Shown here in pieces: positions 40,556-62,253 of a DNA stretch of 64,000 nucleotides (its first letter is position 1; the number at the start of each line of letters is the position of its first letter). The position numbers and the translations under genes were made by a program. Below the pieces are notes generated by a model, which did not search any database, had not been told where the DNA came from, and worked only from the letters and a program-made list of their open reading frames with translations. Location: assembly GCF_020552705.1 (NCBI RefSeq), contig NZ_JAJBZG010000002.1, forward strand, positions 558,001 through 622,000, given 5' to 3'. This DNA comes from Christiangramia sediminis (GTDB lineage Bacteria > Bacteroidota > Bacteroidia > Flavobacteriales > Flavobacteriaceae).

Positions 40556-41020
40556 TCGGCGAACATACTCAACATTGATCCCGAATAAAAGCAGCTTATA
40601 GAAACCTTAACCAGAATCAGGCTGGTTTGCCCCATTGAGTTAAAAATGCTTTGCTTAGTGATATAATGAAATATTAAAATCATTTAATTTTTAATATTAT
40701 TTTAAGGTTTTTTATTTCAAGGTTCTCTTAAAACCTTCAATGTTAGGTCGCATCATACCTTTTGCATGCTCATATTAGATACAACATTTGAGTAATAATT
40801 AATAAAAAAAGAAGAATCCAGTATAAAACAAACATCTTTCAAATTTGTCTTAGTAAAAATGATGTTTAATAAAATTCCCGCAATTTTTAATTCAACTGAC
40901 CAATATCATATCTATTCCCGTAAAAAGGATTTAGATTGGTATTCCCAAATACATACATGACATAATAACTTATTACCGGCGAATTAATAAATCGTTTAAT
41001 TATTTTCTAAATAGGATGTC
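40556..41020. other. Intergenic region, 465 bases
   Basis: Between proline dehydrogenase (leftward) and the flavin-binding protein (rightward). It holds island operator 1 (40897-40908) and a weak palindrome AAGGTTTT/AAAACCTT near 40702-40737. No ORF or RNA gene recognised. Confidence 0.6.
40897..40939 (+). promoter_or_regulatory. Island operator 1 with -7 box
   Basis: TGAC-CAAT-ATCA (40897-40908; one mismatch to TGAT-N4-ATCA), 23 bases, then TAGATTGG (40932-40939). It points at the flavin-binding gene 41021, leaving an untranslated leader of about 75 bases. Confidence 0.55.
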
Positions 41021-41470
41021 ATGAAAGATTTAACCCATAAAGAATGTCTCGATCTTCTTACTCGTAATTATATTGGTCGTATTTCATTTATTTCTAAAGG
41101 AAATCCTGAAATCATTCCCATAACTTATTATTACAATCCAGAGAAGAATAGCATTATTAGCTATTCTGGGGAAGGTTCTAAAATTACTGCTATGCGAAAG
41201 AATAATTCGGTTAGTTTTCAGGTTGACGAAATTTCTGATCTGGATAAATGGAAATCGGTACTTGTATATGGCAAGTATGAAGAGTTAAGCGGAATAGATG
41301 CAAAACACGTTTTGCGTTTATTTTCTGAAGGGGTAAAAAACCTACTTCAAAAAAAAGAGAAGAACAACGCAAATTTTATCAGTGAATTTTCCAGCAAGAT
41401 TGACAGTGAGGGTACACCTGTAGTTTACCGTATTAATATTTCAAATATTACTGGAAGACAAAGGGTTTAA
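41021..41470 (+). CDS. Pyridoxamine 5'-phosphate oxidase-like flavin split-barrel protein
   Basis: 149 residues. LTHKECLDLLTRNYIGRISFISKGNPEIIPITYYY is the typical N terminus of FMN-binding split-barrel proteins (PNPOx-like, Nim-type). ISYSGEGSKITAMRKNNSVSFQVDEI fits the flavin contact region. Probably a small flavoprotein reductase or flavin carrier. First gene of the stress island, behind operator 1 and ended by a hairpin. Confidence 0.82.
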   Translation: MKDLTHKECLDLLTRNYIGRISFISKGNPEIIPITYYYNPEKNSIISYSGEGSKITAMRKNNSVSFQVDEISDLDKWKSVLVYGKYEELSGIDAKHVLRLFSEGVKNLLQKKEKNNANFISEFSSKIDSEGTPVVYRINISNITGRQRV

Positions 41471-41477
41471 ATCAAAT

Positions 41478-41511
41478 TCCAAAAACTACTTAAAAAACAA
41501 GTAGTTTTTGG
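41478..41511 (+). terminator. Hairpin behind the flavin-binding gene
   Basis: CCAAAAACTACTT pairs perfectly with AAGTAGTTTTTGG (13 bp, loop of ~7). There is no T tail outside the stem, so termination is likely but not certain. Confidence 0.55.
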
Positions 41512-41571
41512 ATGAATAATGTCCCTTAAAATTCATTATACTAAATCAATTCTTATTATAAAATTATACTT

Positions 41572-41958
41572 ATGGAATATTATTTTTCTAAAACAGTGAA
41601 TAAAAGTTTTGAAAACGTTGTGGCTAAAGTCACAAAAGAACTGGAGTCAGAAGGCTTTGGGGTTTTAACTGAAATCGACGTTACCGCTACCTTAAAGAAA
41701 AAACTGGATGTTAATTTTAAAAAATATCTAATTCTGGGTGCGTGCAATGCACCTTATGCACATAAAGCATTGCAGGCAGAAGATAAGATTGGCACCATGC
41801 TGCCTTGCAATATTATAGTACAGGAACTGGAAAAAGATAAAATTGAGATAGCAGCGGTAAATCCAAAGGCTTCCATGCAGGCTGTAAAAAACAAGGATTT
41901 GGAAAAGATCGCTACAGAGATTGGAGAAAAATTACAAAAAGTAATAAATAGGGTCTAA
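41572..41958 (+). CDS. DUF302 protein
   Basis: 128 residues matching DUF302: SFENVVAKVTKELESEGFGVLTEIDVTATLKKKL, YLILGACNAPYAHKALQAEDKIGTMLPCNIIVQE. These small proteins of unknown function are common in stress and sulfur gene clusters. The Cys of GACN and LPCN are family-conserved. No exact island operator upstream; possibly cotranscribed with the previous gene if the hairpin is leaky. Confidence 0.87.
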   Translation: MEYYFSKTVNKSFENVVAKVTKELESEGFGVLTEIDVTATLKKKLDVNFKKYLILGACNAPYAHKALQAEDKIGTMLPCNIIVQELEKDKIEIAAVNPKASMQAVKNKDLEKIATEIGEKLQKVINRV

Positions 41959-42560: not shown

Positions 42561-43010
42561 TTAAACTTCCTCTATATCAATTAGCTTTTTGGGTATTGCT
42601 TTTGAAGGTTCCATTTTACTGAGTTGCAGCTTTAACACCCCATTCTTGTACGATGCTTTAACTTCCTGATCCCGATTCACATTTTTTGGAATTTGCAATC
42701 TTCGATCAAAGGAGTTATAACTAAATTCTCTTCGAGTGTAATCCTCTTTATTTTCTTCATCTTCCAGACTTTTTTCTGCGGAAATATGAAGAATATCATT
42801 CTCTAAAGAAACTTCGATGTCTTTTTTTGAGAAACCGGGAACCGCCAATTCTATTTCAAAATTGGCCTCATTTTCTTTAACATTCATCGCAGGCAAATCA
42901 CCCCCTCTACCAAAGAAGTCATCTGTGAAAAAATCATTGGTATTTAACCAATTGGAAATCTCACCGTCAAACCACGGCCTTCTGTTTTTTCTAAATTTTA
43001 CTAACGACAT
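42561..43010 (-). CDS. Small heat-shock protein, Hsp20/alpha-crystallin family
   Basis: 149 residues. The alpha-crystallin domain spans about 42-140 (MNVKENEANFEIELAVPGFSKKDIEVSLENDILHISAEK, RREFSYNSFDRRLQIPKNV, ASYKNGVLKLQLSK), and the C-terminal IPKKLIDIEEV carries the IxI-type tail. ATP-independent chaperone that holds unfolded proteins. Upstream is island operator 2. No CIRCE element is seen. Confidence 0.93.
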   Translation of the reverse strand: MSLVKFRKNRRPWFDGEISNWLNTNDFFTDDFFGRGGDLPAMNVKENEANFEIELAVPGFSKKDIEVSLENDILHISAEKSLEDEENKEDYTRREFSYNSFDRRLQIPKNVNRDQEVKASYKNGVLKLQLSKMEPSKAIPKKLIDIEEV

Positions 43011-43124: not shown

Positions 43125-43167
43125 TAAATTTACGATAGGTATAGTATTAATTCCATGATATTTATCA
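43125..43167 (-). promoter_or_regulatory. Island operator 2 with -7 box (hsp20)
   Basis: TGATATTTATCA (43156-43167, exact dyad), 23 bases, then TAAATTTA (43125-43132, minus-strand direction). It would give a leader of about 110 bases for hsp20 (start at 43010). The remaining gap to 43306 holds nothing else. Confidence 0.75.
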
Positions 43168-43306: not shown

Positions 43307-44161
43307 TTAGTTTCTTAGATCATGCATTACCAGCACAGGTATTTTTGAATAGTGCCCCAGATATTTCACCATCGGGTATGAGAAAACCGAACTAAAGAAG
43401 GCGTGCTTTTTATTAATAAAAGTAATCATCTCACTACCCCTTGTCTGCACAAAATTTTGAAGTCCTATTTGAATATCAATTTTTTCCATCCAGTGAAAGC
43501 TATAGTCCAGGCCTTCCAAAATATCTTCCAGTAGTTCTTTATTATTTAATTGGCTCTCACTTAAGGATTTCTTTTGATTAATGTGAAGAATTCTAAGCTT
43601 TGAATTAGTGATTCGAACAAATTCATATAAGATATTCAATTCCCTTCTTTTAAAAGGTGTTTTGAAATTTGTGGGAAAGACAATTTCATTTGGCTTTTTA
43701 AATATCAAATTATATGGTACAACCAGAACAGGACAATTCCTTATTTTCTCCATCACGTCTATAGTCTTACTACCAAAAACTGTATTTGAGGCATTTGACT
43801 TTCCTTTATTGCTTAAAACAATAATTTCAATATCTTTTTGCTCCACTAATTCCCTGATAGCCCCCAACACAGAATTATACATGGAGATGGTATAATAAAT
43901 ATGCTTCTTATTATCTTCCTTTAATATTAATCGGGATAATTCTTTTTCCAGATTTTCCTTTGATTTTGCTTTAGCATCTTCATAATTTTTTTCCCCTGGT
44001 TCTGGTACCATCATACTATCGGTCGTATAAAACTTGCTTTCAAAAGCATTTAAAATATAGAATTCACATTCTTCATTTTTAAATAAAGTGCGTGCATAGT
44101 TCATTGCATTCCACGAATTCATTGAAAAATCTGTGGGTAATAAAATTTTCTTTTTCATCAC
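43307..44161 (-). CDS. Tandem-domain universal stress protein, Usp-A of the island
   Basis: 284 residues, two UspA folds. Domain 1: KKILLPTDFSMNSWNAMNYARTLF and IIVLSNKGKSNASNTVFGSKTIDVMEKIRNCPVLVVP (partial ATP-loop). Domain 2 from IVFPTNFKTPFKRRELNILYEF is more divergent. The start is ATG 44161 or the second ATG at 44158. Single gene immediately behind operator 3 and downstream of the response-regulator gene on the same strand. Confidence 0.88.
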   Translation of the reverse strand: MMKKKILLPTDFSMNSWNAMNYARTLFKNEECEFYILNAFESKFYTTDSMMVPEPGEKNYEDAKAKSKENLEKELSRLILKEDNKKHIYYTISMYNSVLGAIRELVEQKDIEIIVLSNKGKSNASNTVFGSKTIDVMEKIRNCPVLVVPYNLIFKKPNEIVFPTNFKTPFKRRELNILYEFVRITNSKLRILHINQKKSLSESQLNNKELLEDILEGLDYSFHWMEKIDIQIGLQNFVQTRGSEMITFINKKHAFFSSVFSYPMVKYLGHYSKIPVLVMHDLRN

Positions 44162-44182: not shown

Positions 44183-44225
44183 GAAAATTAATCCATAAAC
44201 AGACCTAACCCAATGATATTTATCA
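44183..44225 (-). promoter_or_regulatory. Island operator 3 with -7 box (Usp-A)
   Basis: TGATATTTATCA (44214-44225, exact), 23 bases, then TAATTTTC on the minus strand (44183-44190). The Usp-A start follows about 20 bases later, so a short leader is predicted. Confidence 0.75.
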
Positions 44226-44343: not shown

Positions 44344-45399
44344 TTAAATATTTATTTGTTTCAATCCGTTTAGGTCTAAGATCTTAATAGAATGTCCTTC
44401 AATTTCTATTAAACCATCCTTACGGAAACTCGATAGGGTGCGTATCAAACTTTCAGTGGCTATGCCAGCTGCACTGGCTAGATCTGAGCGGCGAATTTTA
44501 AAAGCTTGGGTGGGATTTTTACTAAGAGTGGTAGAAAAATCAATGAGGGTTTGAGCAGTTTTTGAATAAACTGAACTATAAACTAGATGCAATAACTGTT
44601 CGTGAACTTCCAAAATATTCTTATTCATAAGGTCCATAAATTCAAAGCAAACATGCTGATTGTTATTCAGTATTTCCTTTAAAATATTCTTTGAAATAGC
44701 CGCCAATTCTACAGGTTGTACTACGACAGCCGACTCATGATAAGCATTATTTTCAATAAAAGAAGTCAGGCCCAAAAATTCATCTTTTTTATGTAAGGCA
44801 GTTGTAAGCTCTTTCCCAGCCTTATTTATTTTAAAAGATTTCACTACCCCCTTTAAGATTAAATAGATTCTATTGGTGTGTTCTCCCTCACTATATACAA
44901 GCTCACTCTCATTATAATTCAAAATTTCGCCACGCATTTCAAAAAAGTTTTTTAGTTCAGATAAATTCCTCACCGAATTTCCGTTCTCAGTGGTGGAATT
45001 TCTCTTTTCTGAAAATATTTTCGTGAGACTTTCTGATTTTGTTATTCTACTTTTTATAGCTTTTAGTAAGTCCTCTTCTTCAAAAGGCTTGGTAAGATAA
45101 TCATCTGCACCCATCTGCATCCCCTTTCTTATGTCAACATACTCTGTTTTAGCCGAAATAAAAATAAAAGGGATATGCGAGGTAGAAAAATCAAGACTCA
45201 CTGCTTCAAGCACTTCGTACCCGTCAACCTCTGGCATCATAATATCACAAATTATCAAATCTGGTAAAAACTCCTTAACCCCCATTATTCCCTTTCTACC
45301 AGTAGAAGCCTTAGCGACCTGGTAACCCTCAAGCTCGAGTAACTCAGCAGTATTATCCAGTAATACCAAATCGTCTTCTATGATAAAAATTTTTTTCAT
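44344..45399 (-). CDS. Response regulator receiver fused to a CRP/FNR-type transcription factor
   Basis: 351 residues. REC domain 1-120: acidic pocket EDD (8-10), phospho-acceptor Asp52 in ICDIMMPEVDG, Lys104 in DDYLTKPF. A linker to ~150 is followed by a cNMP-binding-type beta-roll (150-270, GEHTNRIYLILKGVVKSF) and a CRP-type helix-turn-helix (about 290-345: RRSDLASAAGIATESLIRTLSSF). In the recognition helix the Glu and Arg that contact the GA step in CRP and FNR are kept; the FNR Ser is Ile. No FNR-type cysteine cluster. No histidine kinase is adjacent. Ten matching dyads surround it, so it is the probable regulator of this island. It is preceded by an unusually strong Shine-Dalgarno (AGGGGAGG). 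Confidence 0.92.
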   Translation of the reverse strand: MKKIFIIEDDLVLLDNTAELLELEGYQVAKASTGRKGIMGVKEFLPDLIICDIMMPEVDGYEVLEAVSLDFSTSHIPFIFISAKTEYVDIRKGMQMGADDYLTKPFEEEDLLKAIKSRITKSESLTKIFSEKRNSTTENGNSVRNLSELKNFFEMRGEILNYNESELVYSEGEHTNRIYLILKGVVKSFKINKAGKELTTALHKKDEFLGLTSFIENNAYHESAVVVQPVELAAISKNILKEILNNNQHVCFEFMDLMNKNILEVHEQLLHLVYSSVYSKTAQTLIDFSTTLSKNPTQAFKIRRSDLASAAGIATESLIRTLSSFRKDGLIEIEGHSIKILDLNGLKQINI

Positions 45400-45575: not shown

Positions 45576-45618
45576 TGATGAAAATCATATAAATAGATCT
45601 TTTATTTAGCTAGCTTCA
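45576..45618 (+). promoter_or_regulatory. Island operator 4 with -7 box (lipoprotein)
   Basis: TGAT-GAAA-ATCA (45576-45587, exact), 23 bases, then TAGCTTCA (45611-45618). The ATG at 45632 follows 13 bases later. Confidence 0.7.
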
Positions 45619-46541: not shown

Positions 46542-49199
46542 TTAAATTTTCACAAGCCCCAGGCGTTTGACAATTTGTGAAATTAAAAGTGAAAATAGGG
46601 CGAACAACACTACTAGTAGAATCTGATTGAAATCTAGAGTAACCAGGGATAGAGTTTCACGTAGAAAGGGAATATAATATCCCATATAGGTTATAAGAAT
46701 TGAAACTACCAGTGAAATCCAAACCCATGGATTAGAAGTAACCTCATTTTTAAAGAATGAAGTTTTCCAGGAGGGTAAATTGAAGATATTAAACAATTGA
46801 GCTAATACCAAAGTGTAAAAAGCCATATTATTTATTGTCAGGCTGGGTAAATTCAATTTGAAATTCGCATAAATTACTATACCTATTACTGCAATTGTAA
46901 TAGAAAGCCCATAAATAACAGTTGCCAGCCAGTGATCTTTTGTTAGAATCTGCTCTTGCGGATCTCTGGGAGAGTTTAACATGATACCCTTGCTACCTTT
47001 TCCCATTCCTAATGCCAGTGCTGGAAAAATATCAGTTACTAAGTTTAAATATAGAATTTGTAAAGGGAGCAGGGGTAATGGTAAATTAGTTAAAGAAGCG
47101 GTAGCAACGGAAATAACCTCAGCGAGATTACAGGAAACAAGGAAAATTACGAAATACCGGATATTTTCAAAAATTGCCCGTCCCTGATGTATAGCTAATC
47201 TAAGGGCTGTGAATTTATCATCCATTAAAATAACATCGGCCACTTCCTTGGCTGCTTCTGTTCCGCGGATACCCATGGCAATGCCTATATCTGCTTTTTT
47301 TAGAGCCGGGGCATCATTCACTCCATCACCTAGCATTCCTACTACTCCCTCATGTTTCTGATAAAAACTGACCAGATCTAGTTTTTGTTTTGGTAACATC
47401 CGTGCAAATACAGAAGCATTCAATAAGAGCTTCTCTTGCTTTAGAGTAATTTTTTCAAAGTCGGGATAGTCTGAGCCAAGCACTGTTTTTTCATTGACAT
47501 TCTCCAACCCTACCAGACCAATTTCCTGGGCTATTTTTAAGGATGTTCCCGGATGATCACCGGTGAGCATTTTTACCTGTATCCCGGCATCTTTATAAAT
47601 TTTTATTGCTTGTGCGATATCCTGCCTTGGCGGGTCAAGAAATCCTACAATTCCTATCAACACCAATTCCTCCAATAATTTCTCCTGTGCCGGAATATCT
47701 GTAGTGTTTCTATAGGCAAAAGCCAATACTCTCAAACCATGAGAAGCCAGATTATCTGCACAGTTATTCCATGCATGAGCATCTGTAAGCTTTTTTTCCC
47801 CGCCTGCCACCAATATATATTCACAATACTTCAAAACATTTTCCGGCGCGCCCTTTACACAGGTGATAAATTTTCCATGATCTTCATTCAGCGTTAGCAT
47901 TAATTTAAGTTCCGCATCAAATGGCATTTCGTTTACTTCAGGATATCCTTCTGCAATAGCATTAGCCTGGTATGAAGTATTGTTTACAAATTCCATTAAA
48001 GCCGTATCTATGGCATCGCCATTAGCTTTTGATTTTTTTGGATTTGAATTATTACATAAAACTGCAACTTTTATTAGTTGATCCAGATCGGGTTCATTTT
48101 TATGAGTTTTTAGATTTTTTTGATCTATCGGATTTTCCAGATCAATTTTAGAATTTTCAAACACAATGCTTCGAACAGCCATTTTATTTTCGGTAAGGGT
48201 TCCCGTTTTGTCTGTACAGATAATATTTGTTTCCCCTAAGGTTTGGACCGATTCCAATCTCTTGATCACAACTTTTTGTTTAGATAATTTAAGCATGCCC
48301 CTGGCCAGGGTTATAGTAGCAACCACAGGAAGTCCTTCAGGAATAGCAGCGACAGCCAATGCGATCCCGGTTTTTATCATTAAAACTGGATCATTAGCCG
48401 TTAAAAATCCGGTCATTGCTATAAGGACCGCTAAAACCACCGTAAATAATATAAGCCAGTGGGTCAAAGAATTAAGCTTTTTTTCCAGGGGTGTACGCTT
48501 CTTTTCAGCTTCCTGGGTCATATAACTAATTTGCCCTATAGCCGTTTCATCCCCCGTAGCTGTTACTACTGCTTTTGCGTTCCCACGGGCAATTATTGTC
48601 CCATTAAATATCATATTAATACGTTCTGTAAGACGTGTTTCTAATGGAAGCGTGTCCAGTTTTTTTTCTACCTGTTCACTTTCACCGGTAAGCATAGATT
48701 CTTTCAGGGAGAGGCTTTTCTGAGCTATTAATCTTGCGTCGGCAGGGACTACATCCCCCGCCTGCAGTAAAATAATATCTCCGGGGACCAGTGATCGAGA
48801 AGCTAAACGTCGTTCTTCTCCATCCCGGATAACAGTAGATTCTGTTTCCACCATTTTTTGAAGGGCGACCAGAGAGCGCATCGCCTGCCATTCCATAAAA
48901 AACCCAATTAGTACGGTGATAAAAACCACAAAAAGAATAGCAAAGCCTTCAATAATTTCATTGAATAAGAAAGCAAGTATCATCGCCCCTAACAGGATAT
49001 AAATAATAGGACTTAAGAACTGCTCGAGAAAAATTTCCCAAACGCTTTTGGCTTTCTTGCGTTTAAGAATATTTTCTCCACATAATTTCAGGCGTTCAGA
49101 AGCAAAGCTTGCATTTAAACCCTTTTCAGAATTAGATTGCAAACGTTCTAAGACATTTTTTATAAGAAGCGAATGAGCATCGGGTAACATAGATACCAT
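46542..49199 (-). CDS. P-type cation ATPase, Ca2+-ATPase-like (type II)
   Basis: 885 residues. TGES near 171-174, phosphorylation motif DKTGT near 330, and GDGVNDAPAL in the P domain. Ion-site positions of SERCA-type pumps are kept: PEGLP in M4 (Glu309 equivalent), CNLAEV in M5 (Asn768, Glu771) and NLVTD in M6 (Asn796, Asp800), which favours Ca2+ over K+, Na+ or Mg2+. Ten membrane segments expected. Third gene of a minus-strand operon behind two Usp genes; its own upstream gap (83 bases) has no operator. Start may be ATG 49199 or 49190. Confidence 0.9.
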   Translation of the reverse strand: MVSMLPDAHSLLIKNVLERLQSNSEKGLNASFASERLKLCGENILKRKKAKSVWEIFLEQFLSPIIYILLGAMILAFLFNEIIEGFAILFVVFITVLIGFFMEWQAMRSLVALQKMVETESTVIRDGEERRLASRSLVPGDIILLQAGDVVPADARLIAQKSLSLKESMLTGESEQVEKKLDTLPLETRLTERINMIFNGTIIARGNAKAVVTATGDETAIGQISYMTQEAEKKRTPLEKKLNSLTHWLILFTVVLAVLIAMTGFLTANDPVLMIKTGIALAVAAIPEGLPVVATITLARGMLKLSKQKVVIKRLESVQTLGETNIICTDKTGTLTENKMAVRSIVFENSKIDLENPIDQKNLKTHKNEPDLDQLIKVAVLCNNSNPKKSKANGDAIDTALMEFVNNTSYQANAIAEGYPEVNEMPFDAELKLMLTLNEDHGKFITCVKGAPENVLKYCEYILVAGGEKKLTDAHAWNNCADNLASHGLRVLAFAYRNTTDIPAQEKLLEELVLIGIVGFLDPPRQDIAQAIKIYKDAGIQVKMLTGDHPGTSLKIAQEIGLVGLENVNEKTVLGSDYPDFEKITLKQEKLLLNASVFARMLPKQKLDLVSFYQKHEGVVGMLGDGVNDAPALKKADIGIAMGIRGTEAAKEVADVILMDDKFTALRLAIHQGRAIFENIRYFVIFLVSCNLAEVISVATASLTNLPLPLLPLQILYLNLVTDIFPALALGMGKGSKGIMLNSPRDPQEQILTKDHWLATVIYGLSITIAVIGIVIYANFKLNLPSLTINNMAFYTLVLAQLFNIFNLPSWKTSFFKNEVTSNPWVWISLVVSILITYMGYYIPFLRETLSLVTLDFNQILLVVLFALFSLLISQIVKRLGLVKI

Positions 49200-49281
49200 T
49201 ATTTGAATTATTAAACCAACATCTGAAAAACCTCACTTTGTAAATATTCTTTAAACTCAATTTACTCCTTATATGTCTAGT

Positions 49282-50136
49282 CTATTTCTCTGTTTTTATA
49301 CCAGAAGGGATAACTAAAAATGGAATATTAGTATGATAGACCAACTGATTGATCACAGGTTTAAATAAGATGTTTTCAAAAAATGAATGTTTATTATTTA
49401 CCATTATGATAAGGTCAATTTCATTGTCTTTTTGAAATTTCTCTATAGCATGTGCTATGTCTTCCCCTTCTGTGATATGTAAAATGGGTTTATTGGGAGC
49501 AAAGTAATTCATGATCAATTTCTTATTCCCTATCTGCGCACTATTCTGAGGTTCACCTTCGTAAACATTTAATATATGCAGGTGCCCCTTATATAAATTC
49601 TGGAATTCTTTAATTAAATCTAGATCCCTTTCGATGATATTCTTATAGTCTGTGGCAAAAAGAGCTTCGCCAGGAATTTTAAAAGTATACTTAGAAGGCA
49701 CCGCCAGTACTGGACATTTTACTTTTTTGATAGTATACATGGTATGGGTACCTAGAAAAATTTCCCTGGATCCAGTAGCTCCCTGTGTGCCCATTACTAT
49801 TAATTCTATTTTTTTTTGTTCTATAACATCTTTAATTTCACTTACCAACACATTAAAGGATACTATAGTTTCAAATTGATGTTTGCTATTTCTAAATTCA
49901 TCAATTAAATCCTGCTTTAATTTTTTAATGTTTTCTTCAGCATTGTTTTTAATGATATCCATTAATTCCAGTGAGGAAAAACTATTGAGCATTTTTCCGG
50001 AATGATAAACAGCTGGTGTATAGGTATGCAACAAATAAAATCGGCATTTTTGATTTTTAAACAATTGAAGAGCATAACGCATAGCATTATGTGCATTCTT
50101 AGAAAAATCTGTTGGTAAGAGTATATTTTTCATCAT
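49282..50136 (-). CDS. Tandem-domain universal stress protein, Usp-B
   Basis: 284 residues, two UspA domains. Domain 1: MKNILLPTDFSKNAHNAMRYALQLFK, ending in IVMGTQGATGSREIFLGTHTMYTIKKVKCPVLAVP (complete G2xG9xS/T ATP loop). Domain 2 from ALFATDYKNIIERDLDLIKEF is shorter and lacks the loop. Middle gene of the operon with Usp-C (9 bases upstream) and the P-type ATPase. Confidence 0.9.
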   Translation of the reverse strand: MMKNILLPTDFSKNAHNAMRYALQLFKNQKCRFYLLHTYTPAVYHSGKMLNSFSSLELMDIIKNNAEENIKKLKQDLIDEFRNSKHQFETIVSFNVLVSEIKDVIEQKKIELIVMGTQGATGSREIFLGTHTMYTIKKVKCPVLAVPSKYTFKIPGEALFATDYKNIIERDLDLIKEFQNLYKGHLHILNVYEGEPQNSAQIGNKKLIMNYFAPNKPILHITEGEDIAHAIEKFQKDNEIDLIIMVNNKHSFFENILFKPVINQLVYHTNIPFLVIPSGIKTEK

Positions 50137-50145
50137 TTAGGGAAT

Positions 50146-51016: not shown

Positions 51017-51059
51017 TAAAATTACATAAGCTTAGGATTTGAAAGTATGATATTGGTCA
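51017..51059 (-). promoter_or_regulatory. Island operator 5 with -7 box (Usp-C operon)
   Basis: TGAT-ATTG-GTCA (51048-51059; one mismatch), 23 bases, then TAATTTTA on the minus strand (51017-51024). Leads into the Usp-C, Usp-B, ATPase operon. Confidence 0.65.
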
Positions 51060-51368: not shown

Positions 51369-51411
51369 TGATAAATATCATTTTTCCAGCATTTGAAGTT
51401 AATTAAATTTA
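51369..51411 (+). promoter_or_regulatory. Island operator 6 with -7 box (TerB-SDR-Prx operon)
   Basis: TGATAAATATCA (51369-51380, exact), 23 bases, then TAAATTTA (51404-51411). The ATG at 51429 follows 17 bases later. Confidence 0.75.
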
Positions 51412-51845: not shown

Positions 51846-51907
51846 TTAGCTATAGAGGAGTAAAAATTGACTTACCTCAAATCCTGTATTAATAAAAATG
51901 TTATAAG

Positions 51908-52669: not shown

Positions 52670-52733
52670 CTTAGGATTACAATTTTCAAAAAAATGTTTT
52701 TATAAAAAGTTTTAGCTTTTAAATCGTGAAATA

Positions 52734-53454: not shown

Positions 53455-54306
53455 CTAATTATCATTGCTTCTATCAGAAGTATGAATTTTAAAGGTGAGT
53501 ACCGGTATTACAAAATGGTTCGCAATTTCTTCACCAACGCTACCAAAAAATTGATATGCAATTCCTTTATGGCCGTGGGTAAGAATTACGATAGCATCTG
53601 ATCCTGTTTCTCTGGAGAAATTTAAAATCCCTTTTTCCAGAGAGTAATCATTATAATAAACAACTTTGTCCTGAATTCCCATATCTTCCATTCCGGCTTC
53701 TTCAAAGAAATTATGAACCCTCGCCCTCATATCGATGGTACTTAGAAAATTCTGAACCAGATTCACATATAACAGGGCTGGCTCACAATTAAAGTTCTTT
53801 AGAAAGTTTAAAGCTTCCTTAAATGTTTTAATTCCTTCCAGATCAAAATCAAAAGCGATTACTGCTTTTTTAATATTGAAATCTTTTATCCTTTTTTTAA
53901 TAACCAAAACCGGGGTCTCTGACCAGCGGATAACTTTTTCTGTATTAGAACCTATAAAAAATTCTTTTATCCCGCTACTACCCTGAGAACCCATCACAAT
54001 CAAACTTGACTTATATTCTTTCGAGATTTCATTTATTTCCCGAAATAATTTATCGTTCCTTATTGTGACTACTACTGGAATGTTTTTTAAATATTCTTTT
54101 TTCAGAAATGATTTAAACCTATCTTTTGCTATTTGCCTATAGTGAGGAGCTTGGTGCTCTTCATTTTTAATAAGTACAGATTCAGACCACCCCAACATAT
54201 GTAATACTACTATTTTGCTATTTTGCCTTCTGGCAATACTGGCAGCAACCTCCAGGGCATATTCAGAATATTCTGAAAAATCTACAGGAACTAGTATAGT
54301 CTTCAT
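53455..54306 (-). CDS. Tandem-domain universal stress protein, Usp-D
   Basis: 283 residues. Domain 1: MKTILVPVDFSEYSEYALEVAASIARR with a complete ATP loop (IVMGSQGSSGIKEFFIGSNTEKVIRWSETPVLVIKK). Domain 2 from AVIAFDFDLEGIKTFKEALNFL also has a late loop-like HGHKGIAYQFFGSVGEEIANH. Convergent with the peroxiredoxin gene. Single gene with operator 7 upstream. Confidence 0.9.
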   Translation of the reverse strand: MKTILVPVDFSEYSEYALEVAASIARRQNSKIVVLHMLGWSESVLIKNEEHQAPHYRQIAKDRFKSFLKKEYLKNIPVVVTIRNDKLFREINEISKEYKSSLIVMGSQGSSGIKEFFIGSNTEKVIRWSETPVLVIKKRIKDFNIKKAVIAFDFDLEGIKTFKEALNFLKNFNCEPALLYVNLVQNFLSTIDMRARVHNFFEEAGMEDMGIQDKVVYYNDYSLEKGILNFSRETGSDAIVILTHGHKGIAYQFFGSVGEEIANHFVIPVLTFKIHTSDRSNDN

Positions 54307-54384
54307 GATCTATGGAATTATAAGGATATAATAAATAATTAAACCCCATTAAAATACTCATTATCAAATTACTAAATAAGACTT

Positions 54385-54427
54385 TAAATTTAATTTATTC
54401 TGAATTTAGAAAATATGATAATTATCA
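54385..54427 (-). promoter_or_regulatory. Island operator 7 with -7 box (Usp-D)
   Basis: TGATAATTATCA (54416-54427, exact), 23 bases, then TAAATTTA (54385-54392, read on the minus strand). Confidence 0.75.
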
Positions 54428-54518
54428 AAGCATATTTTAGAATAAGAAGCTTTCAGGGTTTTTGTTCCAAACACTTCCACTTTCATTGAAACTCCTAATC
54501 AACTCATTTAAGCGCAAC

Positions 54519-54561
54519 TGATCAATGTCATTTCACTTCTTTATACTCTTACTTAACTTTA
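54519..54561 (+). promoter_or_regulatory. Island operator 8 with -7 box (Usp-E)
   Basis: TGAT-CAAT-GTCA (54519-54530; one mismatch), 23 bases, then TAACTTTA (54554-54561). The next gene on this strand starts 230 bases further on. Confidence 0.6.
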
Positions 54562-54792
54562 AAACATATACGGCTAAGAAACCCAAAATATGGGAAGGTT
54601 GTATGTATTAAAGAATTAAAAAGTTTAGAAATTCAGAAAACCTAAATCTCGAATAATTAATCAAAACGTGAATTTCTAGAGGTTTCAAGCTAAGTGTAGG
54701 TGAGATATAATTTCGGCTTTGGTTCACTGGAGATTTAGATTAGCCTGGCTTTGGGATTGGACTTAAACCTATCAAAATTTAAATAATGAAAC

Positions 54793-55665
54793 ATGAAAAA
54801 TATACTTCTAGCTACAGATTTTTCTAAGAATGCTTACTGTGCACTCCACTATATCACTAATCTCTTAAGGGAGGAAGAATGTAGATTTTTTATTGCTAAT
54901 TTTTATGGGGAAAATATCAATCAAAGGATGTATTCCAGGATTGGTGAAGAAAAAAACAAAAAAATAGAGGCATTAAGGATCGAAGCTGAAGAAGCAGCCT
55001 TAGAACTTAAGCATCAAATAATTCGAGATAGTCCGTTTAAAAAGCATCACTTTCAAACGATAGTATCCCAAAATAAGCTCATTGAGGGAGTTAAAAACTT
55101 AATTGCAGAAAAGAATATCATGCTAATGGTTATGGGCGCGAGAGGTATTTCCAATTTAAAAACCAGGCTATTTGGTACCAGCACTACAAAAGTGGTTGAG
55201 AGCTCACTATCCATACCTCTCCTGGTAGTCCCCCGGGAAGTGAATTATAAAATTCCTAAAAAGATTGCATTTGCTTCAGAACTGATACTCCCCTTTTATG
55301 ACAACAGTTTAGATCTATTGGTGAATATTGCAAGTACTTATAAGTCTAAAATAATTCTGGTCCATATTGGTGAGGAAGATTCATTACTTTCACAACAACG
55401 GGAGAATTTGAATAAATTTCAGAATTTAATGCCTAAGAAAGAAATAACCAAAATATGGCTATCCCAGGAGGGCTCCCTGTCCAAAACCATTGCAGATTAT
55501 GTGAAGCGGTATCAAATAGACCTGCTCACTATGATTTATTATAAACATAATTTTCTGGATAAATTATTTCGTGAAAATATAATGATGAAGATAGATCTAC
55601 ACTCCTCTTTTCCTCTTCTCATTCTCCCCGCTTTCCCACGTTTAATCCCCAAACAGGAAAGTTAG
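54793..55665 (+). CDS. Tandem-domain universal stress protein, Usp-E
   Basis: 290 residues. Domain 1: MKNILLATDFSKNAYCALHYITNLLR, loop VMGARGISNLKTRLFGTSTTKVVESSLSIPLLVVPRE. Domain 2 from IAFASELILPFYDNSLDLLVNI is divergent. Most similar in layout to Usp-A, B and C. Only plus-strand Usp of the island; its ATG at 54793 overlaps an out-of-frame ATG at 54786. Confidence 0.9.
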   Translation: MKNILLATDFSKNAYCALHYITNLLREEECRFFIANFYGENINQRMYSRIGEEKNKKIEALRIEAEEAALELKHQIIRDSPFKKHHFQTIVSQNKLIEGVKNLIAEKNIMLMVMGARGISNLKTRLFGTSTTKVVESSLSIPLLVVPREVNYKIPKKIAFASELILPFYDNSLDLLVNIASTYKSKIILVHIGEEDSLLSQQRENLNKFQNLMPKKEITKIWLSQEGSLSKTIADYVKRYQIDLLTMIYYKHNFLDKLFRENIMMKIDLHSSFPLLILPAFPRLIPKQES

Positions 55666-55725: not shown

Positions 55726-55737
55726 TGATTTGTATCA
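55726..55737. promoter_or_regulatory. Orphan exact dyad in a convergent gap
   Basis: TGAT-TTGT-ATCA matches the island operator but lies between the 3' ends of Usp-E and the PEP synthase gene. A TATTTTAG box on the minus strand (55696-55703) is at 22 bases, not 23. It would drive transcription antisense to Usp-E, or be chance. Confidence 0.4.
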
Positions 55738-55764: not shown

Positions 55765-58143
55765 CTAAACTTTTACCTCCCTCTCTGCGATATTCATATT
55801 TTTAATTCCTTTAATTAGCGCATCCGGATTATAGGAAATACTGTCTATTCCATTATTAATTAAAAATATTGCAAATTCAGGAAAATCGCTTGGAGCCTGG
55901 CCGCATAAACCAATTTTTATCCCAGATTCCTTAGCTTTTTTAATCGCCAGTGCAATCATCTGTTTAACTGCCGGGTCATTTTCATCAAAAATTTCTGCCA
56001 TAAGCTGGGAATCACGGTCTACTCCCAGCATTAGCTGGGTGAGATCGTTAGATCCAATAGAAAAACCATCAAAAATCTTAGCAAATTCACTGGCAAGGAT
56101 AATATTGCTGGGGATTTCTATCATCATATAAATCTCAAGATCATTTACTTTTTGTTGTAACCCATAATTTGCCATGATGTCAATTACTTTTTTTCCCTCC
56201 TCTAAAGTTCTGCAAAATGGGATCATCACTTTTACATTGAACAATCCCATCTCATCCCTAACTCTTTTTATAGCCTCACATTCAAGTTTAAAACCTTCAC
56301 TATAAAGTTCACTGTAATATCTTGAAGCTCCTCTAAATCCGAGCATTGGATTTTCTTCTTTTGGTTCAAATTGTTGTCCTCCAATCAGATTTGCATATTC
56401 ATTCGTTTTAAAATCGCTCATCCTCACAATTACTTCTTTAGGATAAAAAGCTGCCGCAATAGTCCCTATACCCTGGCTAAGTTTATCGATAAAAAAAACT
56501 TCCTTGCTAGGATAATTTTTAGTTAGGATTTCAATTTGGTTCTTTGCTGCAGAGTCGAGTAAATCCTGGAATTTAACCAAGGCCATTGGGTGAGCCTTGA
56601 TCATATGGGTTATTATAAATTCCATGCGTAACAATCCTACCCCATTATTGGGGTAAAATGAAAGTTCAAAAGCTTTATCAGGGTCTGCCAGGATAAATTT
56701 GGCTTCTGTTTTGGGTAGATGAAAATCATCAAAATTGATCTTATTTTCCACATAATGAATTTGTCCTTTGTAGACTTTTCCCGTACTACCTTCAGCACAG
56801 GAAACAGTTATAGGTTCACCGTTCCTTATGATATTTGTAGCATTATTGGTACCCACCACTGCCGGCACCCCTAACTCCCGGGCCACAATAGCGGCGTGAC
56901 TGGTCCTGCCGCCACTATTTGTTATGATACCTCCCGCTTTCTTAAGTAAGGGATCCCAATCGGGGCTGGTGTTGTCTGTAACTATAATATCTCCGCTCTC
57001 CAATTTATGGGAATCTCTTGGGGAATCCAGAATTCTGGCGGTTCCAATAACAATTTTAGAACCTATCGCACTTCCTGTAACAAGAACTTCTCCCTGTTCT
57101 TTTAATTTATATTCTGTAAAAGAGCTGGAAGATTTAGAATGATGCACTGTTTCTGGCCTGGCCTGCGTAATGAAAAGATTTTGGGTGATCCCATCTTTTG
57201 CCCATTCAATATCCATAGGTTTATTGTAATGATCTTCAATGGCCAAACACCATTTGGAAAGCTGTAGTACTTCGGCATCTGTTAAAATATACCGGTTTTG
57301 TTTTGAGACTTCTGTATTTATATTCGTTATAGAAGAATGTCCATTGGAATCAGCATAAATCATGGTTTTGGCTTTATCCCCCATTTTCTTTTGAATAATT
57401 GCATTTTTACCCTGCTTTAGAGTTGGCTTAAAAACATAAAATTCATCTGGATTTACGGTTCCCTGTACAATGTTTTCTCCTAATCCCCAAACTCCCGAAA
57501 GATGTATAACCTCTTTAAAACCAGATTCGGGATCTATAGTGAAAGCAATACCGGAGCATCCGGCATCAGACCTTACCATCTTTTGAACCCCTACAGATAA
57601 TGCTACGCTATCGTGTTTAAAACCCTTATCTTCTCTATATTTTATTGCTCTATCGGTATAAAGTGAAGCAAAGCATTTTTTCACTGCCTCCATTAGGGAT
57701 ACTTCTCCCTTAATATTTAAATAGGTTTCATGCTGCCCTGCAAAACTTGCTGTGGGTAAATCTTCAGCAGTAGCGCTGCTCCTTACGGCAACTTCAATAG
57801 GCTCATTGCCACTTAACTCACGATAAAATAATTTTATTTCTTCTGTAAATTTTTCTGAAAAACTGGCAGCCATGATTAGCTTTCTAGCCTCGGAACCTAT
57901 CTTTTCAAGATTGGAGTACTCTTTTCTATCCAAGTTATTTAAAAGGTTTATCAAAGACTGTCTGATATTGTTTTCTTTTAAAAAAATTCTAAAGGCCTTA
58001 GCAGTGGTGGCAAAACCATTGGGAATATGAATTCCCTTGCCCGATAATTCATTATACATTTCTCCCAAAGAAGCATTTTTCCCGCCTACCATCGCTATAT
58101 CGTGGAGACCTATTTCCTGAAATTTCACAACCAGAGCTTCCAT
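55765..58143 (-). CDS. ppsA: Phosphoenolpyruvate synthase
   Basis: 792 residues, standard length. N-terminal ATP-grasp part (KNASLGEMYNEL, VRSSATAEDLPTASFAGQHETYL), phosphohistidine domain with His416 in GGRTSHAAIVARELGVPAVVG, and a C-terminal TIM barrel (LLRMEFIITH, MLGFRGASRYYS, IGLCGQAPSD). Converts pyruvate, ATP and water to PEP, AMP and phosphate in gluconeogenesis. It follows a small membrane-protein gene after 12 bases, behind operator 9. Confidence 0.96.
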   Translation of the reverse strand: MEALVVKFQEIGLHDIAMVGGKNASLGEMYNELSGKGIHIPNGFATTAKAFRIFLKENNIRQSLINLLNNLDRKEYSNLEKIGSEARKLIMAASFSEKFTEEIKLFYRELSGNEPIEVAVRSSATAEDLPTASFAGQHETYLNIKGEVSLMEAVKKCFASLYTDRAIKYREDKGFKHDSVALSVGVQKMVRSDAGCSGIAFTIDPESGFKEVIHLSGVWGLGENIVQGTVNPDEFYVFKPTLKQGKNAIIQKKMGDKAKTMIYADSNGHSSITNINTEVSKQNRYILTDAEVLQLSKWCLAIEDHYNKPMDIEWAKDGITQNLFITQARPETVHHSKSSSSFTEYKLKEQGEVLVTGSAIGSKIVIGTARILDSPRDSHKLESGDIIVTDNTSPDWDPLLKKAGGIITNSGGRTSHAAIVARELGVPAVVGTNNATNIIRNGEPITVSCAEGSTGKVYKGQIHYVENKINFDDFHLPKTEAKFILADPDKAFELSFYPNNGVGLLRMEFIITHMIKAHPMALVKFQDLLDSAAKNQIEILTKNYPSKEVFFIDKLSQGIGTIAAAFYPKEVIVRMSDFKTNEYANLIGGQQFEPKEENPMLGFRGASRYYSELYSEGFKLECEAIKRVRDEMGLFNVKVMIPFCRTLEEGKKVIDIMANYGLQQKVNDLEIYMMIEIPSNIILASEFAKIFDGFSIGSNDLTQLMLGVDRDSQLMAEIFDENDPAVKQMIALAIKKAKESGIKIGLCGQAPSDFPEFAIFLINNGIDSISYNPDALIKGIKNMNIAEREVKV

Positions 58144-58155
58144 TATTTAAAGTAT

Positions 58156-58545
58156 TTAATATAAAATCAATTGATATCCCATATTCAATAAATACAATCC
58201 CAGGATAAATAATAACATGTATAACACCTGTACCAGTTTAATATTTACTTCTAATAAAAAATTAGTGGCCATTTGCTGAAAAGCGAATAATACAATTCCC
58301 AGAATTAGAGAAGTCCATCCAATAAGGGTGATTATAATCGTCCAGTTGGATTCCCAGGAATTGTGCAGTAAAATATTGACCAAACCAATTACAGTGGCCA
58401 GAAACGAAGCGATAATCACAAACTTCTGGTCTTTAAGATCCTCGAAAATCTGTTTAATTCGGGAAGGTCGTACGCTTAAGGTGGTAAAGAAAATAAGTAG
58501 ATACCATCCCCAAAATTTCGCTAAAATGATAGATACTTCCATCAT
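58156..58545 (-). CDS. Small membrane protein upstream of ppsA
   Basis: 129 residues with four hydrophobic segments (IILAKFWGWYLLIFFTTL, FVIIASFLATVIGLVNILL, WTIIITLIGWTSLILGIVLFAF, VLYMLLFILGLYLLNMGY). Family not recognised. First gene of the operon with ppsA; starts at ATG 58545 or at the second ATG at 58542. Confidence 0.7.
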   Translation of the reverse strand: MMEVSIILAKFWGWYLLIFFTTLSVRPSRIKQIFEDLKDQKFVIIASFLATVIGLVNILLHNSWESNWTIIITLIGWTSLILGIVLFAFQQMATNFLLEVNIKLVQVLYMLLFILGLYLLNMGYQLILY

Positions 58546-58859
58546 GAGTTTTCTTTAATTCATCATCTAATTTAGAATGCATCAACCACATTAGAAATGA
58601 TATATATCATTCTAAAGTTTGGAGTAAAACTGGAAATTTGATAAAATAAGAAGATATGATTGAGCTGAAGTAAATGTTGAAAATCATACTTACAGATGTT
58701 TACCGTTATGAATTTCAATTCATTTTAGATAGATGTTGAAGCTAGGTTCTACAATGATCTTTTATAGGAAAAACATCAATACTCAAATTAATTCTCAGAA
58801 AATCCGTATTTTAAAATTAGCTGAAATAGCTTGGGATTTTAATGCAATAAAAGATTTAT
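58546..58859. other. Divergent intergenic region, 314 bases
   Basis: Between the small membrane protein and the patatin gene. It holds operator 9 (leftward), a weak rightward match at 58675-58686, and the perfect palindrome ATGAATT-TC-AATTCAT (58708-58723). Confidence 0.5.
58567..58609 (-). promoter_or_regulatory. Island operator 9 with -7 box (membrane protein-ppsA)
   Basis: TGATATATATCA (58598-58609, exact), 23 bases, then TAAATTAG on the minus strand (58567-58574). Confidence 0.72.
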
Positions 58860-59663: not shown

Positions 59664-59667
59664 GCTT

Positions 59668-60651
59668 CTAATTTTTTTGAGCCTCTCTATTCTTTTGTCG
59701 CTCCAGTTTTCTAAAATATCCACGAAAGAAAAAATTGTGTTTCAATGCTTCCATATTTTCGTTGAGCTTTATTGAGGACTCTTTAAAATTAATCATGGTC
59801 GTATCTATATTCTCAACTAATTCCCTGTTCTGAGTGAAATAATTTAAAGCTCCTTCTCCTTCTTTAATTTCCTTTATCATTGCGTTTACATTCTTTGTAA
59901 TACCAGAAATTTCGTGACTGGAAGAGTCAAGACTTATAATTATTTTTTCCAGACGATTCCGGGCCAGCGTATCACTCAATAAAGTACCGGCAATACTTTC
60001 ATTGAAATCAATGTTAGCCAGTTCTCTGTTTATTTTTTGCATTGCCAGGGTGGTTTGTTCACTTGTTTCTTTTAGATTATTTAGAATTAGTTTTATATCC
60101 TGTGCAAGAATAGTATCACTAACCAAAACTCCTAAAGTTCCCTTTGCTTCCAGTATTTTATTAGTGATCTTAAGGAGATCTGAGGTAAGCAACGCAGCAT
60201 TTTCATTGGTTTGATTCAGAGTGGACAGCATATCGTCGGCACCTATTCTACTATAGGTTTCTATGGTATCACCAGGAATGACGGACTTTAAATTTTCTTT
60301 TCCAGGTAAAATGTTTACCACCATGCTTCCCACCAAACCATCTGAGCCTATCGTGGCAATGGCATCTTTTTTAATAAACTTACCTGTAGATTCTTCCACC
60401 ACCATTTGAACCAGGATTCTGGATTCGGCCAACATTTCAATTTTACTAACCGTTCCTACATTGATCCCCGAATATCTAACATTATTACCAATTTGTAATC
60501 CATTTACATTTTCAAATTGGGCATAAATAGAAATGTTTTTAGTGAATAAATGCTGCCTGTTTCCAATAAAGAAAAGAGCTGATATAAGTATGAGTGTTCC
60601 GAGGATCACGAAAACACCAAGTTTTATTTTTTGTGAGGTTGTTGTTGCCAT
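59668..60651 (-). CDS. mlaD: MCE-domain lipid-transport protein (MlaD-like)
   Basis: 327 residues. One N-terminal membrane helix (KLGVFVILGTLILISALFFIG), an MCE domain at about 38-115 (IYAQFENVNGLQIGNNVRYSGINVGTVSKI), and a long helical, coiled C-terminal region. It forms a ring binding phospholipids in the periplasm. Third gene of the minus-strand mlaE-mlaF-mlaD operon; MlaB and MlaC are absent, as often in Bacteroidetes. Confidence 0.9.
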   Translation of the reverse strand: MATTTSQKIKLGVFVILGTLILISALFFIGNRQHLFTKNISIYAQFENVNGLQIGNNVRYSGINVGTVSKIEMLAESRILVQMVVEESTGKFIKKDAIATIGSDGLVGSMVVNILPGKENLKSVIPGDTIETYSRIGADDMLSTLNQTNENAALLTSDLLKITNKILEAKGTLGVLVSDTILAQDIKLILNNLKETSEQTTLAMQKINRELANIDFNESIAGTLLSDTLARNRLEKIIISLDSSSHEISGITKNVNAMIKEIKEGEGALNYFTQNRELVENIDTTMINFKESSIKLNENMEALKHNFFFRGYFRKLERQKNREAQKN

Positions 60652-60656
60652 GAGCT

Positions 60657-61409
60657 TTAATTTTTAAAAAAGGCCTGTACTTTTGGATCTTTAGAATTTG
60701 ATAGCTCTTCAAAAGTTCCCTGCATATAATTGATACCATCCACCAGGAGAATCATTCGGTTGGAGATCACCCTGGCACAATCCACATCATGAGTTATTAT
60801 CAAAGAAGAGGTATTATAGGTATGTTGGATGTTTCTCATTAATTCTATGATCTCTTTAGATGTAATGGGATCGAGTCCTGTGGTTGGCTCATCATACAAG
60901 ATAATTTCCGGTTTGAGTATAAGAGCACGGGCCAGCGCCACTCTTCTTTGCATCCCTCCAGATAATTCTGAAGGCATTAGATCTATCGTATGTTCCAGAC
61001 CTACATTTCTTAAAGCTTCCTGAACCAGACTTTCAGTACTTTCATTTAGCTTAAGTTTTTTCTTGTGCCTTCTAAGTGGAAATTCAAGATTTTCACGAAC
61101 CGTCATGGAATCATACAAAGCGCTACCCTGAAATAAAAAACCAATATGGGTTCTCAATAAATCTAATTCGGCCCGACCCAGAACTTCAATATCCTGGTCT
61201 TTAATCCTTATGATTCCGCTATCAGCTTGTAAAAGACCTACCAGACATTTTATCATCACAGACTTTCCTGAACCAGATTTTCCCATTACTACAAGATTTT
61301 CACCTTCAAAAAGCTTCAGATTAAATCCGTTCAAAACAGCATTCCCGGCAAAAGATTTTTTCAGATCTTTAATCTCCAGGATAGGTTCTATGTTCTTTAG
61401 ATCTTCCAT
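60657..61409 (-). CDS. mlaF: ATP-binding subunit of the lipid transporter (MlaF-like)
   Basis: 250 residues. Walker A GKSGSGKSV, Q-loop FLFQGSALYDSMTVRENLEFPL, signature LSGGMQRR, Walker B ILYDEPTTGLDPIT and the H-loop THDVDCA. SALYDSMTVRENLEF is characteristic of MlaF. The start ATG overlaps the mlaE stop (TAATG). Confidence 0.93.
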   Translation of the reverse strand: MEDLKNIEPILEIKDLKKSFAGNAVLNGFNLKLFEGENLVVMGKSGSGKSVMIKCLVGLLQADSGIIRIKDQDIEVLGRAELDLLRTHIGFLFQGSALYDSMTVRENLEFPLRRHKKKLKLNESTESLVQEALRNVGLEHTIDLMPSELSGGMQRRVALARALILKPEIILYDEPTTGLDPITSKEIIELMRNIQHTYNTSSLIITHDVDCARVISNRMILLVDGINYMQGTFEELSNSKDPKVQAFFKN

Positions 61410-62185
61410 TAGCCATAAAATATATCTGCTGCAAAAACAGCAATAAAATCTATTACGAATAGAAGCATAGAAGTATAGACTACAGCCGCATTAGAGGCTT
61501 CCCCCACTCCCACTGTGCCTTTAGAACAATAATAACCTTTATAACATCCTACCAGACCTATGGCAAAACCAAAAAAGAAAGATTTTATGGTAGCGGGTAT
61601 CACATCTGCAAAAGTAAGTGCATCAAATACCTGATTGAAATAAAGCAGAAATGAAACTTCTCCTTTTAAATTCTCTATGATCGCGGAACCAAAAAGTGCA
61701 ATAGCATCCCCAATGAGTATTAATAGAGGCAACATTAATGTTGTTGCTACAATTCTGGTTACCACCAGATATTTAAACGGGTTGGTGCCTGAAACTTCCA
61801 TGGCGTCAATTTGTTCGGTAACTCTCATAGAACCGAGTTCTGCACCAATTCCTGAACCTATCCTGCCGGCACAAATAAGCGCGATGATCACAGGGCCAAT
61901 TTCTCTAACAATGGAAATACTAACCATAGATGGCATCCAGGATTCTGCTCCGAATTCCATAAGAGTAGGCCTGGACTGTAGCGTAAAAACCAAACCAAGG
62001 ATGAATCCCGTTACACTTACAAGCAATAGTGAGCGGTTACCCATATTATAACATTGGCGTAACAGCTCCCGGAATTCAAATGGAGATTTAAATACTTCAA
62101 TAAAAAAGCGACCGGCAAAATAAGCCATATCCCCTACTTCAGCAAAAAAACTTTTGACATTACCCCATATGGTATTGGAATCCAT
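61409..62185 (-). CDS. mlaE: Permease subunit of the lipid transporter (MlaE-like)
   Basis: 258 residues with about five membrane segments and the MlaE signature GSGIGAELGSMRVTEQIDAMEVSGTNPFKYLVVTRIVA. First gene of the operon, 33 bases behind the operator 10 -7 box. The system moves phospholipids between the membranes and keeps outer-membrane asymmetry. Confidence 0.93.
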   Translation of the reverse strand: MDSNTIWGNVKSFFAEVGDMAYFAGRFFIEVFKSPFEFRELLRQCYNMGNRSLLLVSVTGFILGLVFTLQSRPTLMEFGAESWMPSMVSISIVREIGPVIIALICAGRIGSGIGAELGSMRVTEQIDAMEVSGTNPFKYLVVTRIVATTLMLPLLILIGDAIALFGSAIIENLKGEVSFLLYFNQVFDALTFADVIPATIKSFFFGFAIGLVGCYKGYYCSKGTVGVGEASNAAVVYTSMLLFVIDFIAVFAADIFYG

Positions 62186-62210
62186 GATTCATAATGAATT
62201 GATTTTAAGT

Positions 62211-62253
62211 TAAATATACAGTATTCGTGTGCTGTAATTAATGACATTCATCA
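62211..62253 (-). promoter_or_regulatory. Island operator 10 with -7 box (mla operon)
   Basis: TGAC-ATTC-ATCA (62242-62253; one mismatch), 23 bases, then TATATTTA on the minus strand (62211-62218). The rest of the gap to 62487 holds the terminator of the next gene and nothing else recognised. Confidence 0.6.

Follow-up and report, generated by a model that had tools for sequence, protein, structure and literature searches.

We analyzed a 64,000-nucleotide stretch of the Christiangramia sediminis genome (contig NZ_JAJBZG010000002.1, positions 558,001 to 622,000; hereafter the window) and found that ten promoters in a 21-kb island rich in universal stress protein (Usp) genes share one geometry: a TGAT-N4-ATCA dyad, exact or with one mismatch, followed after 23 bases by a TAnnTT box that faces a gene or operon. 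In relatives, this spacing is ahead of all other spacings more than tenfold, and the sites are kept upstream of orthologous genes. The island also encodes a regulator in which a receiver is fused to a Crp/Fnr-type protein, and the genes of its homologues typically lie directly behind that of a histidine kinase whose PAS domain resembles the haem PAS domain of FixL. With a probability of roughly 0.7, these promoters form part of a regulon for survival at low oxygen, with the ten dyads serving as class-II activator sites. A FixL-like kinase and the fused receiver-Crp/Fnr protein would control this regulon, and the fused protein probably switches the set on when the haem-type sensor kinase reports low oxygen.

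Results

A fixed spacing between dyad and box

The dyads were located at 43156, 44214, 45576, 51369, 54416 and 58598 (exact) and at 40897, 51048, 54519 and 62242 (one mismatch), and in 10/10 cases the distance to a TAnnTT box facing the named gene was exactly 23 bases, in agreement with the first-pass annotation of this DNA. The window contained seven exact dyads, compared with 2.0 expected from shuffles, and one-mismatch dyads were common (75, with 48.8 expected); the rare feature is the dyad combined with the fixed spacing, not the one-mismatch dyad alone. Across the 3.25-Mb genome (five contigs), the dyad with N23 and TAnnTT was matched 90 times with up to one mismatch and 18 times exactly, ten of the exact matches being intergenic and eight lying inside open reading frames (ORFs). 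Counted post hoc, with a pattern read off these same sites, 12 of the 90 matches fell in the island where about 0.5 were expected from the rest of the genome (Poisson 5e-13), and six of the 18 exact matches where 0.08 were expected (Poisson 3e-10). The 12 comprise the ten sites, the 58598 site on the other strand and a site at 61632.

Since the pattern had been derived from the island sites, it was tested independently in relatives. Two sets of loci were used: set 1 comprised 40, each spanning some 20 kb about a homologue of the fused regulator, and set 2 comprised 80 named loci, with six loci common to both sets. Set 1 contained 111 exact dyads against 23 expected under a first-order model; a TAnnTT box stood at spacing 23 for 86 of these, and each other spacing from 5 to 44 was represented 0-8 times. 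In set 2, 180 of the 254 dyads (185 dyad-sides) had a box at spacing 23, compared with 2-16 at other spacings. Scanning related Flavobacteriaceae, which the first-pass annotation had proposed as a check, bore the pattern out: dyad-N23-TAnnTTT occurred 1458 times in 249 genomes of the family, the N22 variant 324 times and the reversed pattern 136 times.

The sites were also conserved upstream of orthologues. Allowing up to one mismatch, and giving set 1 before set 2, a site was present in the leaders of usp (79/95; 96/134), hsp20 (10/11; 11/11), the gene labelled 'TerB' (18/18; 24/31), PyrOx2 (3/3; 4/5) and mlaE (1/1; 7/8) genes, and unevenly in those of DUF3298 genes (7/7; 3/12), with the reversed pattern found once in set 1 and twice in set 2. 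Among unclassified neighbours, 49/173 and 103/445 carried a site, including S30AE ribosome-hibernation and TauE genes. Small S30AE-type genes under the same promoter were seen at L094:3652-3963 (by Pfam) and also in loci L097, L104 and L077.

Outside the island, sites preceded a usp gene beside a second fused regulator, ric (ScdA_N/hemerythrin), hemN, the nosZ cluster, a thioredoxin-like gene and an ATP-cone/Mrr gene. At the last of these (L036, 6065-6105), an exact site was followed by the ATP-cone/Mrr-type gene and then by an ORF that looked metallo-beta-lactamase-like by eye. As intergenic sites precede genes elsewhere in the genome, a regulon private to the island was rejected; the earlier view of a real regulon holds and was too narrow, because the same promoter type also serves genes outside the island.

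Sequence of the box and promoter geometry

In Flavobacterium, the TA of the -7 box has been mapped to -12 (PMC6847099, available excerpt). If the same position is assumed here, the dyads are centred at -41.5, the class-II geometry that had been claimed for them, and the predicted transcription starts leave leaders of 9 to 227 bases. Across 255 distinct sites, the -7 box reads TAnn-TT followed by T (78%) and A or G (92%), corresponding to the Bacteroidota housekeeping box (TAnnTTTG, -12 to -5). G is nearly absent at its second N, as it is in the published box (PMC6847099, same excerpt).

The flanks of the dyad are asymmetric, with C (63%) or A (22%) before it and T (98%) after it; the FNR-type outer pair T...A occurred in 1 of the 255 sites. 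This following T was present in all ten window sites and in 70 of the 198 dyads that had no box at spacing 23. It falls at -35, where the polymerase would read a -33 element, and may be a contact of polymerase or a sigma factor. A -33 TTG accompanied 3 of 82 sites in relatives. For the island, where the first-pass annotation had reported none, this was correct for nine of the ten sites, the site at 44214 having a TTG 20 bases before the box. With the element nearly absent, the promoters look unable to start unaided.

In other families (27 genomes) the strict dyad was weak, with 67 sites and five for the reversed pattern. At 20 loci from these families, the strict dyad was found five times at spacing 23, and a looser TGA-N6-TCA 18 times at 23 as against 0-7 times elsewhere.

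The fused receiver-Crp/Fnr regulator

The island regulator (44344..45399, minus strand) consists, according to Pfam, of a receiver (residues 4-116; PF00072, 3e-27), a degenerate cyclic-nucleotide-type domain (161-247; PF00027, 6e-16) and a Crp/Fnr helix-turn-helix (282-349; PF13545, 1e-12), which places it in the Crp/Fnr family. Its receiver has the acceptor Asp of two-component receivers; the CDIMMP motif was invariant in the aligned rows, and the receiver was intact in 30 of them (29 distinct). The recognition helix GIATESLIRTL is almost invariant among fusion homologues. In an alignment with FNR-like proteins, their Cys positions, which would hold an iron-sulphur cluster, are not kept in the window regulator. 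The cyclic AMP (cAMP) pocket of CRP contains Glu E72 and Arg R82; the corresponding region of the window regulator, read by eye from the sequence, is GLTS...YHES. The predicted structure (predicted local distance difference test score, pLDDT, 79; predicted template modelling score 0.44) gave no information about how the domains pack and was left out of the analysis.

The genome holds four Crp/Fnr genes, as counted with PF13545 only (PF00325 was not searched), namely two receiver fusions and two plain Crp proteins. In the CRP/FNR helix, a Glu and an Arg read the TGA half-site. This Glu...Arg pair is found only in the two fusions (ATESLIR and APESLIR) and the Glu is missing from both plain Crp proteins, so that only the fusions fit the box. 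The second fusion (C1:103921-104955) lies beside the gene of the FixL-like kinase, and at this locus (L037, 7054-11258) the regulator and PAS kinase genes stand between two usp genes, one of them with an exact site. The earlier proposal of one activator, probably the protein encoded at 44344, is thus supported as to its type, but the paralogue may share or own the activator job.

Plain FNR-like proteins of about 225 residues, with a CxxC near the start and a helix (GTATESAIRVL) nearly the same as that of the fusions, occur in 156 of the 249 genomes. Presence was called at E<1e-40, so that two genomes at about 2e-39 were counted as absent, and 31 genomes without a listed match were taken as absent. 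The source genome has no FNR-like protein at this cut-off; its best match had an E-value of 2.5e-29, and its two matches can be accounted for by the two fusions. Sites per Mb amounted to 2.72 in genomes with a fusion and an FNR-like protein (n=67), 1.90 with a fusion only (n=46), 1.30 with an FNR-like protein only (n=89) and 0.63 with neither (n=47), with 0.09-0.25 for the reversed control across these groups. By these densities, the fusion alone is enough, and the plain FNR-like protein can share the box in relatives. Among genomes of at least 2.6 Mb, the two types co-occurred below expectation (65/43/74/16 in the same order; odds ratio 0.33, p 0.001). The FNR-like protein of the genomes with loci L083, L086, L087 and L091 maps to a shorter gene of Crp/Fnr type, located one gene downstream from the fusion.

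Fusion homologues (E<=1e-40) were detected in 113 of the 249 family genomes and in 43 of 296 genomes of a phylum-wide draw that included the family; named carriers include Maribacter, Aequorivita, Lutibacter, Gillisia, Christiangramia, Psychroflexus and Mesonia. All 122 fusions in the tree (122/122) formed one clade (support 0.875), which would fit a single exchange of sensor for receiver. Their nesting inside the FNR-like proteins was weakly supported (0.358), and the C1 paralogue grouped with Christiangramia.

The FixL-like kinase

A histidine kinase gene directly preceded the regulator gene in 40/40 loci of set 1, in 75 of the 76 scorable loci among the 80 of set 2 (70, plus five with overlapping starts) and in 17/20 loci of other families, where the kinase label denotes the best BLAST match among the query proteins and could be carried by any histidine kinase. 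In the source genome, the only match covering the PAS domain was C1:104970-106217, beside the paralogue and outside the window; seven other kinases of the genome at E<=1e-20 matched in the kinase part only.

In comparison with PDB sequences, 14 of the 17 matches of this PAS domain were haem PAS domains, the best being FixL (8e-15), and in a search with its predicted structure (pLDDT 88) the 13 top-ranked entries were haem PAS domains; FixL and DosP, both of them haem sensors of oxygen, are among the matches. His67 aligned without gaps with the proximal haem His of FixL and was kept, like Arg81, in 41/41 PAS kinases. This check was limited to these 41 kinases, 35 of which were used in alignment A1; a 42nd row (L082:2037-3608), a different kinase with no PAS match, was dropped. 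Another PAS kinase from the source genome, compared as a control, had a GGDEF sensory box protein as its best match and Glu at the His position. The NCBIfam FixL equivalog NF041777 scored 103.5, far below its cut-off of 850, and the kinase is therefore called FixL-like, not FixL. From its sequence, we propose that it binds haem and is controlled by oxygen. Two relatives of the kinase (L076:10630-12504 and L081:6963-9392) have additional PAS domains, L081 also a GAF domain, and one of the two carries an NCRFLQ stretch like that of light-oxygen-voltage (LOV) light sensors.

Genes and promoters of the island

Pfam agreed with the first-pass assignments of Hsp20, five Usp proteins, a short-chain dehydrogenase/reductase (SDR), a peroxiredoxin, a phosphoenolpyruvate (PEP) synthase/pyruvate phosphate dikinase-type enzyme, MlaE, an ATP-binding cassette (ABC) ATPase and MlaD. 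The label 'TerB' was matched by no Pfam or NCBIfam model.

On the plus strand, the first promoter (40897..40937; dyad with one mismatch, box TAGATT) precedes a PyrOx2-type flavin protein gene at 41021. Two exact dyads on the minus strand serve hsp20 (42561..43010; promoter 43127..43167, TAAATT) and a usp gene (43307..44161; promoter 44185..44225, TAATTT), the latter being the site with a TTG at a 20-base spacer. A further exact dyad (45576..45616, plus strand, TAGCTT) precedes a DUF3298 lipoprotein gene at 45632. The minus-strand promoter at 51019..51059 (one mismatch, TAATTT) stands before usp 50146, usp 49282 and the P-type ATPase gene 46542 (46542..50994); the ATPase, of calcium type and below the NCBIfam cut-off, had been listed as a target and has no dyad of its own, being the last gene of the usp operon behind 51048.

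The promoter at 51369..51409 (plus strand, exact, TAAATT) precedes the genes for the 'TerB'-like protein, the SDR and an AhpC/TSA peroxiredoxin (51429..53408, plus strand). An ORF start at 51393 (TTG) precedes the predicted +1 of this promoter, and the 'TerB' gene more likely begins with the ATG at 51429. Two divergent usp genes (span 53455..55665) follow, 53455 on the minus strand behind an exact dyad (54387..54427, TAAATT) and 54793 on the plus strand behind a dyad with one mismatch (54519..54559, TAACTT). The predicted 227-base leader of usp 54793 contained no convincing ORF. On the minus strand, an exact dyad (58569..58609, TAAATT) precedes the genes for a small membrane protein (58156) and the PEP synthase/pyruvate phosphate dikinase-type enzyme (55765; together 55765..58545), and a one-mismatch dyad (62213..62253, TATATT) precedes mlaE, the ABC ATPase gene and mlaD (59668..62185). 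The seventh exact dyad of the window, TGATTTGTATCA at 55726-55737, lies between the convergent usp 54793 and ppsA genes at a spacing of 22 to TATTTT and is probably not a promoter. An Rfam scan of 40500-63000 found no RNA elements.

Discussion

In the mechanism that we consider likely, the cytoplasmic FixL-type PAS kinase (C1:104970-106217) would bind haem and, as oxygen falls, phosphorylate the receiver of the protein encoded at 44344, of its paralogue C1:103921-104955, or of both. The phosphorylated fusion would dimerise on TGAT-N4-ATCA-T centred at -41.5 and so enable RNA polymerase to start at promoters in which a -7 box (TAnnTTTR at -12) is present and the -33 element is lacking. The targets activated in this way would be the Usp, Hsp20, 'TerB'-SDR-peroxiredoxin, flavin protein, calcium-type P-ATPase, PEP synthase-type and MlaEFD genes of the island and, elsewhere, ric, hemN and the nosZ cluster. 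The FixL-FixJ-FixK chain would thus be reduced to two proteins, one of them a DNA reader of FNR type that carries a receiver in place of its own sensor.

The ten sites have virtually no chance of having arisen by accident or from the base composition of A+T-rich DNA between genes: common as one-mismatch dyads are in the window, the spacing peak recurs in two partly overlapping locus sets, orthologous promoters keep the site, and the N22 and reversed controls are low; on the peak and these controls, chance was rejected. Very improbable, too, is a repressor that binds the dyad and blocks the -33 region, which the dyad does cover, because a -33 TTG is nearly absent and the constant spacing matches class-II activation. 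We also doubt that the promoters are read by a one-component protein of FNR type, with an iron-sulphur or other sensor, the fusion being only a neighbour. The source genome has no FNR-like protein, the Glu is missing from its two other Crp proteins, and the site density of fusion-only genomes is maintained, despite the wide occurrence of FNR-like proteins in the family and the higher density in FNR-like-only genomes than in those with neither regulator. A modest chance is left to a fusion that acts as proposed under a kinase sensing redox, nitric oxide, flavin state or light, the regulon then answering general energy stress. The conserved His is no proof of haem, Arg87 varies, and two kinases carry additional PAS domains, one of them also GAF; however, haem oxygen sensors lead both the sequence and the structure matches, and a set with ric, hemN, the nosZ cluster, Usp and Hsp20 is in keeping with oxygen limitation.

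Several observations weigh against control by an oxygen-sensing kinase and the fused regulator. The window regulator has no adjacent kinase gene. Arg87 of the kinase PAS domain, aligned with the distal Arg of FixL, is kept in 33/41 kinases (including that of the source genome), and LOV domains ranked close behind in the structure search, so that the fold alone is not specific. Sites occur in genomes with neither regulator at the cut-offs used (G048, 8; G238, 8; G147, 7; G138, 6, control 4), and 8 of the 13 site-poor genomes, with few or no sites, have an FNR-like protein. P-ATPase leaders had no site (0/8; 0/8), conservation of the ppsA promoter was not shown (0/1; 0/1), and at the cbb3-type oxidase genes the dyad is exact and the box towards them mismatched. 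The promoter of the kinase-regulator operon is mostly without a site (0/29; 7/68), which gives autoregulation little support.

A broader evolutionary reading, to which we give even odds, is that a Bacteroidota FNR-type regulator swapped its own sensor for a receiver once, that a FixL-like kinase thereby took over old FNR-type promoters, and that the usp-hsp20 island was built on them. Reader, box and -41.5 position would have been retained as the oxygen chemistry changed from iron-sulphur to haem and the FixJ-to-FixK step was cut; in the window, evolution would have gone one stage further, to a second copy that evolves fast and has no kinase gene of its own.

Bacteroidota are major degraders in seas and sediments, and their response to oxygen loss is poorly known. 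In a Flavobacterium at low oxygen, cbb3 and haem genes are reported to be up, and 'FNR' and 'Crp' are absent from the available part of that text (PMC9723704). The present analysis yields a regulator, a likely sensor, a target list and an exact promoter rule with which any genome can be scanned; a 'sensor swap' that would lead from one-component to two-component control can now be tested directly. A search of the open literature, with most subscription journals outside its scope, found no description of the fused regulator or its box.

Among known systems, FNR/Anr class-II activation shares the dyad core, the -41.5 geometry and a related helix, whereas the fusion has no Cys cluster and its outer bases are C/A...T, not those of TTGAT...ATCAA (1/255 sites). 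FixL-FixJ-FixK of rhizobia and Burkholderia likewise combines a haem-PAS-like kinase and a receiver with a reader of Crp/Fnr type that recognises a TGA-N6-TCA box; the step from FixL/J to fixK is described for Burkholderia (PMC9104464, available excerpt). Here, in contrast, receiver and reader are one protein, so that the FixJ-to-FixK transcription step is missing, the -7 box is that of Bacteroidota, and usp/hsp20 genes dominate. The DevR/DosR dormancy regulon and OsdR resemble the present set as two-component hypoxia regulons rich in Usp, and DevR differs from the fused regulator in output domain and box. Regulons of this type include Usp, a heat-shock protein and pyruvate phosphate dikinase, and the OsdR boxes given in the same partial text are unlike the present box (PMC5069765). 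The low-oxygen-induced lxa locus of Burkholderia cenocepacia unites six Usp and a heat-shock protein in one island, with no fused regulator reported in the available part of its description (PMC6127331). In Myxococcus, the NmpRSTU oxygen-utilisation regulon places Usp, hemN and cbb3-linked genes under a haem kinase, which, according to the excerpt available, differs in its protoglobin sensor and NtrC-like regulator (PMC11841059). The gene content of the present set converges with that of DevR/DosR, OsdR, lxa and NmpRSTU under a different regulator, and hypoxia islands with usp and hsp20 genes, as in mycobacteria, Burkholderia and Myxococcus, would gain an independent-looking case from another phylum.

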